Shown here one piece after another: positions 6,200 through 32,757 of a DNA stretch of 54,193 nt. Where the stretch lies: NCBI GenBank assembly GCA_017937765.1, contig JAGBCY010000031.1, positions 1 to 54,193 on the forward strand. The letters are read 5' to 3'. Both the position numbers and the translations under genes were made by a program. A model generated the notes under the pieces. It was not told the DNA's origin. It saw nothing but the letters and a program-made list of their open reading frames with translations, and searched no databases. This DNA is from Alistipes sp. (GTDB lineage: Bacteria; Bacteroidota; Bacteroidia; Bacteroidales; Rikenellaceae). The stretch's first letter is position 1; each line of letters starts with the position of its first letter.

Positions 6200-7504
6200 A
6201 TGAGTCTTGTAGCTATTGTAGGTCGCCCGAATGTTGGTAAGTCGACACTCTTCAACCGCCTTGTGGGTCAGCGTCAGGCTATCGTCGATGAGACGGCCGG
6301 CACTACGCGTGATCGCCACTATGGTAAGACAGACTGGAATGGTAAGGAGTTTTCCGTTATCGACACGGGTGGTTACACCGTAAATAGCGAAGATATCTTC
6401 GAGGATGAGATTCGCCGTCAGGTGATGCTCGCTATCGACGAGGCCGACCTTATCCTCTTCCTCGTTGAGGTACGCACGGGAATCACCGACCTCGATATGA
6501 TGATGGCCGATATCCTGCGTCGCTCGGGTAAGAAGGTGATGCTGGTATGTAACAAGGTTGACACCTACGACCTTATCTACTTCTCGCACGAGTTCCACTC
6601 GTTGGGTCTCGGCGAGCCCTATTGCATCAGCTCGATGTCGGGCAGCGGTACGGGTGATATGATGGATGCCATCCTTGCCAACCTCCCCGAAGATACAACT
6701 GCCGAGTACGACGCCTCGTTGCCACGCATCGCTATTGTCGGTCGTCCTAACGTCGGCAAGTCGTCGATGACGAATGCACTGCTTGGTCAGGAGCGTAACA
6801 TCGTTACCAATGTTGCAGGCACCACGCGTGACTCTATCCACACGCGCTATAATATGTACGGTATGGATTTCTACCTTATCGACACGGCAGGTATGCGTAA
6901 GAAGGGTAAGGTTACCGAGGACCTCGAGTTCTACTCTGTGATGCGTTCGATCCGTGCTATCGAGAATTCCGATGTCTGCGTGCTTATGCTCGATGCGGAG
7001 CAGGGCATCGAGTCGCAGGATCTTAACATCCATAATCTCATCGTGCGCAACCGCAAGGGTTGTGTCATTGTCGTTAATAAGTGGGACCTCGTGGAGAAGG
7101 ACAGTAACACGATGAAGGTGTGGCGTGAGTTCCTCGAGAAGAAGCTCGCACCGTTTAGCGACATCCCCATCATCTTTACCTCGGTCATCAACAAGCAGCG
7201 TATCCTCGATGTGCTTCAGGCTGCCATCCGCGTATATCAGTCGCGCAAGCGTCGCATCTCGACATCGGAGCTCAACGACTTCTTCTTGCCCCTTATCGAG
7301 AACTATCCCCCTGCGGCGACAAAGGGTAAGTATATCAAGATTAAGTACGTCACGCAGCTACCTACGCCTACACCGCAGTTTGCATTCTTCGTAAATCTTC
7401 CGCAGTATATCAAGGAGTCGTATCGTCGTTTCCTCGAGAATAAGTTGCGTGAGGAGTGGGATTTCTCGGGAGTGCCTATACAGATCTACTTCCGCCAAAA
7501 GTAA
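6200..7504 (+). CDS. der: Ribosome biogenesis GTPase Der (EngA)
   Basis: Double-GTPase needed for 50S subunit maturation, 434 aa, full length. G domain 1 has GRPNVGKS (8-15), DTGG (55-58) and NKVD (118-121). G domain 2 has a second GRPNVGKS (181-188), a DTAG motif and NKWD near 294. The C-terminal KH-like domain ends in FRQK. The stop codon TAA is the outer part of a 22-bp perfect hairpin (7502-7548). Confidence 0.98.
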
Positions 7505-7548
7505 TTTGTTGTGATAAGCCGCAATCTGCGGCTTATCACAACAAATTA
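7502..7548 (+). terminator. Perfect 22-bp hairpin at der stop; minimal form of a dispersed palindromic element
   Basis: Bases 7502-7523 are the exact reverse complement of 7527-7548 around the 3-base loop ATC, and the first three bases are the der stop codon. Bases 7509-7532 are identical over 24 nt to 14522-14545 after glyA. It looks like the longer element there with its second arm missing. A transcription terminator or mRNA 3'-end stabiliser role is inferred. Confidence 0.8.
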
Positions 7549-13236: not shown

Positions 13237-14517
13237 ATGAACAAAGACTTACAGATTTTTGACCTGATCGCCGAGGAGCGTTCACGTCAGATGAAGGGTA
13301 TCGAGCTTATCGCATCGGAGAATTTCGTTAGCGACCAGGTGATGGCAGCTATGGGCTCTGTATGTACAAACAAGTATGCCGAGGGTTATCCCGCAGCACG
13401 CTACTATGGTGGTTGCGAGGTGGTTGACAAGATCGAGAATCTCGCTATCGAGCGCATCTGCAAGCTCTATGGTGCGGCTTATGCTAACGTTCAGCCCCAC
13501 TCTGGCGCACAGGCAAATATGGCAGTATTCTTCGCTTGCCTCAAGCCCGGCGATACATTTATGGGTCTCGACCTTTCGCACGGCGGTCACCTCTCGCACG
13601 GTTCGCCAGTGAATATGTCGGGTATGTACTTCAAGGCTGTTGGCTATAAGCTCAAGGAGGAGACCGGTAACATCGACTACGACGAGATGGAGGCATTGGC
13701 TCTCGAGCACAAGCCTAAGCTCATCGTGGGTGGTGCTTCGGCATTCTCTCGTGAGTGGGACTACAAGCGTATGCGTGAGATCGCCGACAAGGTAGGTGCA
13801 TTGCTTCTCATTGATATGGCTCACACCGCAGGTCTTATCGCGGCAGGTCTCTTGGATAACCCCGTTAAGTATGCTCACATCGTGACCTCTACAACCCATA
13901 AGACCCTCCGTGGTCCTCGTGGCGGTATCATCCTTATGGGTGAGGACTTCGACAATCCGTGGGGCTACACAACTCCTAAGGGCGTTGTTAAGAAGATGTC
14001 GCAGATCTTGAACTCTGCTGTATTTCCCGGTATTCAGGGCGGTCCGCTGGAGCACGTCATCGCAGCTAAGGCTGTAGCCTTTGGCGAGGCTCTCACTCCC
14101 GAGTATAAGGAGTACCAGCAGCAGGTAGTTAAGAACTCTAAGGCTCTGGCTGAGGCCCTCACAAAGCGTGGTTATAAGATCGTATCGGGTGGTACCGATA
14201 ACCATCTTATGCTCGTTGACCTTCGCACTAAGTTCCCCGAGCTTACTGGTAAACTTGCGGAGAAGTGCCTTGTCGCTGCCGACATTACTACCAACAAGAA
14301 TATGGTTCCCTTCGACTCTCGTACCCCCTTCACTACATCGGGCTTGCGCTTTGGTACGCCCGCTATCACCACACGTGGTGTGAAGGAGGATAAGATGGAT
14401 TACATTGCCGAGCTTATCGATCGTGTACTCTCTGATCCCGAGAACGAGGCAAACATTGCAGCAGTTCGCGCTGATGTTAATGCTATGATGGCGGAGTATC
14501 CGTTGTTCGCCTGGTAA
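13237..14517 (+). CDS. glyA: Serine hydroxymethyltransferase
   Basis: PLP enzyme that interconverts serine and glycine with tetrahydrofolate, 426 aa, full length. [10 protein letters not shown] (21-30), YPAARYYGG (51-59), LIDMAHTAG (191-199) and the PLP lysine in [11 protein letters not shown] (Lys222) are all present. Codon use is strongly biased (GGT, CGT, AAC, AAG), as expected of a highly expressed gene. The structured repeats begin one base after its stop codon. Confidence 0.98.
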
Positions 14518-14641
14518 TTTCTTGTGATAAGCCGCAATCTGCGGCACCAAGCCTCAGAGCCCCGAATGGGAAATACGCTTAAGTATGTCCCATCCGAGGC
14601 TCTTTCATTTGGCACTGCATCTCACGACTTCTCGCAAGAAA
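14518..14641 (+). repeat. Palindromic element family 1, copy A
   Basis: 124 nt bounded by imperfect 14-nt inverted ends TTTCTTGTGATAAG (14518-14531) and CTTCTCGCAAGAAA (14628-14641). Inside are arm 1, GCCGCA-ATC-TGCGGC (14531-14545), and arm 2, with AGAGCC/GGCTCT (14556-14561, 14598-14603), ATGGGA/TCCCAT (14566-14571, 14588-14593) and ATAC/GTAT (14573-14576, 14583-14586). Copy B abuts it. The glyA terminator function is probably included. Confidence 0.8.
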
Positions 14642-14763
14642 TTTCTCGTGATAAGTGGCCTACTTCGGCACCTTAGTCAAAATGGCGAATGGGAAATACG
14701 TCAAGTATGTCCCACCCGCCATTTCTCGTGTCGGCACCAAATTAAACCCCTTCTCGCAAGAAA
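14642..14763 (+). repeat. Palindromic element family 1, copy B
   Basis: 122 nt with ends TTTCTCGTGATAAG (14642-14655) and CTTCTCGCAAGAAA (14750-14763). Arm 2 keeps the copy A core (TGGGA, ATAC, GTAT, TCCCA), but its outer helix is AAATGGCG/CGCCATTT (14680-14687, 14717-14724), different in sequence yet fully paired. Arm 1 is a weaker hairpin at about 14656-14670. Confidence 0.8.
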
Positions 14764-14804
14764 TTAGGGTGTGCTTGTCCGTGTCAACAAAGATATTATT
14801 AATT

Positions 14805-14846
14805 ACTCACTACTCACTACTCACTGCTCACTACTCATTACTCATT
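14805..14846 (+). repeat. Heptamer tandem repeat (6 units)
   Basis: Three ACTCACT units, one GCTCACT and two ACTCATT lie head to tail. This slippage-prone tract is about 85 bases upstream of the sufB promoter. The rest of 14764-14930 shows nothing I can name. Confidence 0.8.
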
Positions 14847-14930
14847 GTTAGAGTGTTTCTGATCTGTAATTCGTTACACCCAAACAACGCCCGTCCTTAT
14901 ACCCGCATAACAATAATTGATAGCCGTAGA

Positions 14931-32591: not shown

Positions 32592-32625
32592 CGTGTGGAT
32601 TGTTGAATAAGGGATAAAAAAAAGA

Positions 32626-32721
32626 GGGTAAGCTACTTATATCGCACCGCTACAACCGCATACCCTTGCTCGATTCCTCGCCTGGGGGGTTCTGCAGGAG
32701 CTGGTCGTATAAGACTTACCC
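32626..32721 (-). ncRNA. ffs: SRP RNA (4.5S type)
   Basis: Read on the minus strand, the ends pair as one long helix (GGGTAAG at 32715-32721 with CTTACCC at 32626-32632, then TCTTATA/TATAAGT). The tip contains CCAGGCGAGGAATCGAGCAA (32666-32685): the CGA-GGAA-TCG stem with a GGAA tetraloop flanked by CAGG and AGCA, the Ffh-binding loop of bacterial SRP RNA. About 96 nt, short bacterial type without an Alu domain. Eight T residues (32616-32623) follow the closing helix and form the terminator. It binds Ffh for co-translational membrane targeting. Confidence 0.93.
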
Positions 32722-32726
32722 GGGTG

Positions 32727-32757
32727 CAAAAGTACAAAAAAAATGTATCTTTGCAAA
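32727..32757 (-). promoter_or_regulatory. Promoter for SRP RNA
   Basis: Minus strand TTTG (32754-32757), 19-base spacer, TACTTTTG (32727-32734): full consensus. The predicted start, about 5 bases past the -7 box, coincides with the helix start at 32721. Confidence 0.8.
32746..32753 (+). promoter_or_regulatory. -7 promoter element for mltG, inside the SRP promoter spacer
   Basis: TATCTTTG on the plus strand lies wholly within the 19-base spacer of the opposite-strand SRP promoter. No TTTG is found 19-21 bases upstream, where the SRP transcript begins. Confidence 0.6.

Follow-up and report, generated by a model that had tools for sequence, protein, structure and literature searches.

Two similar palindromic sequences lie head to tail directly behind glyA in a 54,193-nt stretch of an Alistipes sp. 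draft genome (the window), and they raise the question of what kind of element stands so close to the end of a gene. The earlier note on this DNA, made from the letters alone, had proposed a dispersed palindromic element (REP- or MITE-like) or a structured RNA that might also terminate glyA. Much of its description was borne out: both copies are present, with borders that shift by a few bases (Table 1), the similar inverted ends of units A and B can be seen, and both units carry the fixed core TGGGA-A-ATAC / GTAT-G-TCCCA within flanking helices that differ, AGAGCC/GGCTCT in unit A and AAATGGCG/CGCCATTT in unit B. What that description lacked is the main point of the present analysis: the units are fused, in sense orientation, to stop codons, and unit A begins inside the stop codon of glyA, the product of which matches SHMT (Pfam). 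The palindrome at 7502–7548, which had been grouped with the two copies, is indeed related to them, as a 45-nt solo version at the stop codon of der (the product of 6200–7504 matches EngA (Der) domains, Pfam).

Table 1. Positions, within the window, of the gene-end features at glyA and der.
Feature	Position	Strand	Remark
glyA stop codon TAA	14515..14517	+	last two bases also open the unit A outer stem
Unit A, 128 nt	14516..14643	+	
Unit A outer stem, 5′ arm AATTTCTTGTGATAAG	14516..14531	+	
Unit A local hairpin hp1 GCCGCAATCTGCGGC	14531..14545	+	read from sequence; alternative to the long fold
Unit A central hairpin hp2, conserved apical core	14556..14603	+	
T-rich tract past hp2 of unit A	14601..14609	+	sequence and family statistic
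Unit A outer stem, 3′ arm CTTCTCGCAAGAAATT	14628..14643	+	
Unit B, 126 nt	14640..14765	+	AATT common to units A and B
Unit B central hairpin hp2 (AAATGGCG...CGCCATTT), then CTCGT	14680..14724	+	
Tail AGGGTGTGCT... past unit B	14766..14803	+	looks like a decayed 3′ half-unit, by eye from locus L313
Solo 45-nt near-perfect palindrome	7503..7547	+	begins in the der (EngA) stop codon

Compared with 200 shuffles, units A and B folded with z-scores of −8.2 and −5.1 on the sense strand and of −10.2 and −9.8 on the antisense strand; hp1 is absent from the minimum-energy fold of unit A. Tails like the one past unit B are also present behind many other clusters, and at L313 a full unit is followed by 3′ halves of units repeated in tandem, an arrangement that suggests decay of a half-unit as the origin of the recurrent GGTGTGCTATCCC-like tail. 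Further downstream, at 14804–14844, lies an array of about six 7-nt repeats (TACTCAC), and similar ACTCACT stretches were seen behind some other clusters. Another repeat-like stretch, GTGTCATTCTGAGCGTAGCGAAGAATCTC, follows a unit tail at about 1390–1425 of locus L011 (minus strand), with similar text after C24:75213.

The proposal of a dispersed palindromic element held when the whole source genome (1.92 Mb, 85.7% complete) was searched. A nucleotide search gave 45 matches, and a covariance model built from 34 units gave 142 matches over both strands, which we reduced by hand, retaining the better strand, to at least 86 units in 64 clusters. This count is a lower bound, 150 of 455 candidates having been scored, and it includes the one 45-nt solo palindrome as well as weak matches (the one near tRNA-Arg at E 0.003). 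No cluster mixes strands, and 76 of the 86 units fall in the 125–134-nt length bins, with a typical length of about 127 nt. The term REP in its strict sense did not survive, since the units are mostly 120–134 nt rather than 20–40 nt long and a search of 37 genomes of the genus gave no Y1 transposase.

The covariance-model search for relatives that the earlier note had proposed was run on two samples. In the first (E up to 0.01), 25 of 61 genomes had a match, source included; 25 of the 37 genomes of the same genus did so, and among other families, sampled at one genome per family under stricter filters, none of 24. In the family sample (E up to 1e-5), copies were present in 37 of 150 genomes, belonging to 3 of 22 genera, by match to the model. 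The named genomes from a scan with the core pattern were Alistipes sp. and Rikenellaceae drafts among the 80 of at least 115 loci listed, and many of these matches came, by record title, from ruminant hindgut samples. Plasmids and phages gave no match to the units and viral contigs none to the exact core pattern, and a phage or plasmid origin was rejected on these grounds. No Rfam family reached its gathering score for the units in the window (best E 1.5 for 14500–14900, which is chance level), and the searched literature, with partial journal coverage, yielded no description of this family. A Bacteroidales small SRP RNA (Rfam RF04183) lies at 32622–32728 on the minus strand.

We then asked where the units stand relative to genes, taking at each cluster the longest ORF of at least 90 codons that ended between −60 and +40 nt. 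In 61 of the 64 source clusters, a same-strand ORF ended −16 to +12 nt from the unit start, and 45 clusters started exactly at the second base of the stop codon (stop at −1), which was TAA in 41 and TAG in 4. At the right ends, used as a control, an opposite-strand ORF ended anywhere in the −60 to +40 interval in 10 of 64 clusters and at −1 in none. Of the three exceptions, two follow tRNA genes in sense orientation, one about 120 nt behind tRNA-Gly and the other, the weak match with E 0.003, 26 nt behind tRNA-Arg; the third is near a contig end, by eye behind a unit-like remnant. In view of the tRNA cases, what the sites share may be a transcript end and not the stop codon in itself.

The same placement was found in the relatives, whose units were searched in the 80 of at least 115 core-pattern loci listed. 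After 12 of 109 clusters near locus ends had been left out, an ORF ended within −12 to +9 nt in 84 of the 97 tested, exactly at −1 in 58; among the other 13, several were judged by eye to be non-first members of an array or to stand behind an ORF of fewer than 90 codons. At the right ends, an opposite ORF ended in 12 of 85 clusters, twice at −1; in both of these the end adjoining the stop carries the left-end sequence, so that the strand given by the model is wrong and both cases fit the rule. Such wrong-strand calls were seen at L106 4549–4678, L111 2205–2332 and probably L086 6789–6918: the model can misplace the strand because the units are palindromic, and the strand of a single unit has to be read from its end sequences. 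A further sample of 30 genomes, in which 31 loci were searched (L078 had no match and one locus gave two clusters), showed, with ORFs of 60 codons or more admitted, an ORF end at −16 to +15 nt in 28 of 31 clusters. In clusters that begin, as most do, on the second stop base, the AA or AG of the stop is able to pair with a TT or CT that closes the unit on its 3′ side.

The glyA site itself has no unit in the 14 relatives listed (a glyA match was found in 34 of 37 genomes, source included), and we therefore compared many sites instead. Twenty-four unit-bearing source genes, taken by a seeded random choice, were looked up in two relatives, giving 17 matched gene ends in G035 and 19 in G022; by eye, 6 of the 17 ends carried a unit or a solo hairpin (two partial, one solo), as did 6 of the 19. 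An ordinary hairpin-plus-T terminator was found at 18 of the 24 empty orthologous sites, as against 16 of 63 filled source sites when the sequence past the last unit was searched (Fisher P about 5e-5; 63 of the 64 clusters had enough downstream sequence, and the control inside genes gave 6 of 63). One gene may also be followed by different subtypes in different species, as is the case for the gene upstream of C11:16442 among the unit-chosen loci listed. At the der stop codon, among 10 relatives listed, a complete unit of a different subtype stands in G011 (L234), behind a der match (G011:C81:10805-12106) that has one in-frame TGA according to the search; a solo palindrome akin to that at 7503–7547 occurs in G035, at a different gene (L306).

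The species with empty sites share 85–88% DNA identity at glyA and der with the source, a distance at which neither exact insertion junctions nor a target-site duplication can be read, and evidence for dispersal came from within one genome. In G025 (18 of 25 units listed), 55 pairs among 18 copies had a mean identity of 96.8% inside the unit, whereas the 30 nt of flank averaged 28.5% on the left and 39% on the right. Near-identical units between dissimilar flanks mean that the module is dispersed in its own right, either by transposition or through conversion among units already in place.

Near-identical copies of a discrete module at unrelated sites are also what would be expected of a selfish non-autonomous DNA transposon (a MITE, ERIC- or NEMIS-like), moved by a DDE enzyme at TA and tolerated at gene ends with no function for the host. 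Terminal inverted repeats, short length and dispersed copies were all found, the stops TAA and TAG both contain TA, and the stop was TAA at 41 of 45 filled −1 sites against 11 of 24 empty orthologs (the others being 13 TAG; empty as judged by eye). Random insertion at TA would, however, not place 45 of 64 clusters at one base and nearly all of them in sense, and the right side has no consistent TA. The terminal repeats differ, with compensation, inside one genome, which is a poor fit to a transposase that reads sequence, and no longer element with paired ends was seen among the matches listed for the source genome. We regard this explanation as unlikely; the units themselves may belong among MITEs.

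To ask whether pairing is kept beyond sequence, as had been claimed from units A and B, we turned to the family (fold, T-tract and hp1 statistics cover the 226 of 236 units that are 115–145 nt long), and the claim was supported across many copies. The outer stem varies between units yet stays paired, also where the stop is TAG: in one such example AGTTTC stands opposite GAAACT, and the outer stem of L073, with its TAG stop, has AGTTTTCGATTTTA opposite TAAAATCAAAAACT. In a hand-drawn sense structure of 33 pairs (outer stem plus central hairpin), 16 pairs had changed on both sides, more than in all 500 shuffles, which lose the relatedness of the units, and more than in slid controls (6 to 10), which retain it. 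The antisense strand gave a nearly full-length hairpin of 37 pairs, 27 of them double-changed (slid controls 8 to 13). The RNAalifold consensus had just 15 pairs in sense, all in the central hairpin, against 37 in antisense. As the units are related by descent, these changes represent fewer independent events than the number of units.

The fold is likewise asymmetric. With RNA parameters the antisense strand gave the better fold in 213 of 226 units, gaining on average 11 kcal/mol in source units and 15 in relatives; DNA parameters gave the same count, 213 of 226, at a mean gain of 5.4. The antisense strand had 1131 G-U pairs and the sense strand 231. In 211 of 226 units the hp1 segment, in the 5′ half, folded better than its shuffles did on average, with a mean of −7.4 kcal/mol in sense and a similar value on the complement (−6.6); the mirrored 3′ segment did so in 106 of 226, as expected by chance.

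One possible reading of the asymmetry is an antisense RNA as the functional molecule, a long hairpin transcribed toward the gene that would act as an RNase III substrate or as an antisense regulator of the 3′ end; the better antisense fold, the excess of G-U pairs and the 27 double-changed pairs of the 37-pair consensus all agree with it. The fusion to stop codons is left unexplained by such an RNA, the sequence to the right of the unit varies, and no antisense promoter was noticed, although the search for one was not systematic. We consider this reading very unlikely.

The covariation might instead be a mutational artefact. Template switching at quasi-palindromes perfects hairpins, and correction of this kind could produce matched changes with no selection on structure. 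The perfect or near-perfect solo palindromes at 7503–7547 and L306 resemble fold-back products, as does the unit at 1502–1629 of L010, in which the apical core of hp2 is inverted relative to the rest, as by strand switching. Correction would not favour one strand, however, certain mismatches recur at fixed stem positions, and columns that are G-U on one strand keep their pairing through changes. Such correction may contribute to the palindromes, but as the whole explanation we find it very doubtful.

With these alternatives weighed, the reading that we prefer, at a probability of roughly 60%, is that the ~127-nt palindromic units found across the genus are gene-end cassettes, a dispersed terminator or 3′-end module that replaces ordinary terminators. 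Termination at the units is a prediction. Of 207 units read in sense, 169 have a T-rich tract (at least 5 T in 8 nt) behind the GC-rich hp2, as do 18 of 207 control windows; these windows lie in the GC-rich hp1 segment, a placement that favours the contrast. On the antisense strand the tract is weaker (104 of 192 against 38 of 192); units in which the core pattern was not found were dropped, leaving these 207 and 192. A strict hairpin-plus-T finder scored within just 12 of 63 source clusters. A pattern scanner called no terminator in unit A or B, and its 7 matches in the region equal the chance expectation of 7.1. The earlier suggestion that the repeats might terminate glyA holds up, by inference only.

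In the gene-end cassette reading, hp1, hp2 and the U-rich tract of the transcript would end transcription and shield the 3′ end of the mRNA, taking the place of an ordinary terminator at the gene end, and the 3′ arm of the unit would stay mostly untranscribed. Because the 3′ arm of the outer stem lies beyond the proposed stop, the sense RNA cannot explain the covariation of that stem. The better antisense fold, together with outer-stem covariation, suggests that something else constrains the unit as well, perhaps a hairpin of single-stranded DNA with a part in dispersal, or an antisense RNA. If the former, the antisense fold would serve copying and spread rather than the mRNA.

A bolder version would make the units dual-use mobile elements, acting as host terminators on the sense strand and, as full-length antisense single-stranded DNA hairpins, being copied and integrated in one orientation at stop codons by a putative recombinase, with the terminal stem rebuilt to pair with the stop bases. 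Insertion at a stop codon would be harmless or even useful in this case, since the sense strand would serve as a terminator of the host gene. This is a speculative proposal, and in this specific form we judge it rather unlikely.

Candidate movers were sought in the same 37 genomes of the genus. A Y1 transposase (RAYT) was found in none of these incomplete drafts, while 5 of 14 control genomes were positive; a REP/RAYT system was rejected because no such enzyme was detected in the source or the 37 genus genomes and because of the length of the units. No integron integrase scored above the curated cut-off in the 37 genomes, nor in any of the 14 control genomes, so that the screen had no positive control, and an integron attC origin was rejected with that qualification; weaker tyrosine-recombinase matches were present in all 37. 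Matches to reverse transcriptase (PF00078) occurred in 14 of the 37, G000 and G025 having a weak single match each, and in none of the high-copy genomes G011, G017, G021, G022 and G035 (incomplete drafts); it was rejected as the mover on account of these negative high-copy genomes.

Among the small dispersed palindromes that are common in bacteria, units joined to stop codons almost regularly, with single-base precision and in a single orientation, would be unusual. Such a family raises the question of how a dispersing DNA module finds the ends of ORFs, and it suggests that ordinary terminators can be replaced by a mobile module. A family with both strong covariation and strand asymmetry also makes RNA-level and DNA-level selection on one hairpin separable.

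Several known systems share some of these traits. Integron attC sites are imperfect palindromes at gene 3′ ends, in one orientation, with structure conserved over sequence and one strand that folds better, and their core bases are AAC/GTT; the Alistipes units differ in standing behind dispersed chromosomal genes (glyA, der), and AAC/GTT was not evident by eye. REP and BIME elements are likewise palindromic and lie near gene 3′ ends. The units resemble them in both respects, but are longer and occur in 37 genomes in which no Y1 transposase was found, REPs being 20–40 bp in the published abstract (PMC3733652).

Closer in length, inverted ends and dispersal are the 127-bp ERIC/IRU/RU-1 elements of enterobacteria, and also NEMIS/Correia, RUP and BOX. 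Excerpts of the published accounts state that ERIC is co-transcribed with its neighbours and affects the stability of upstream transcripts (PMC2229807), that in one case RU-1 is fused to the 3′ end of an ORF that has lost its normal stop codon (PMC2759123), and that pneumococcal repeats are over-represented between convergent genes (PMC3049150). As far as these excerpts go, ERIC-type elements have TA at their ends and lie in intergenic and intragenic positions, whereas nearly all clusters of the Alistipes units stand in sense, at or inside the stop, and the terminal stems covary; the separation rests on the descriptions of these families, not on their sequences. DNA uptake sequences of Neisseria and Pasteurellaceae are co-opted as intrinsic terminators at many gene ends (PMC1852404); in the part of that account consulted they are paired, fixed words of ~9–11 nt, in contrast to the ~127-nt units with their variable stems.

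Within the Bacteroidota, the BrickBuilt MITEs of Porphyromonas gingivalis are, in the excerpt of their description, built of 23-nt tandem repeats with 12-bp ends like those of IS5-family insertion sequences, and are intergenic with no overlap of coding sequence (PMC4596501). They are like the units in phylum, dispersal and long stem-loops, and unlike them in the tandem repeats, the IS5-like ends and the intergenic placement free of coding overlap. Among palindromic candidate RNAs from the human microbiome, HMP2_4205 (132 bp, Bacteroidetes) is described, in the text available, as a predicted terminator from a set found mostly in Bacteroidetes (PMC8040213). Compared by description only, such candidates match the units in length and palindromy, stop-codon fusion and dispersed copies being undescribed in that text, and they may include relatives of the units reported here.
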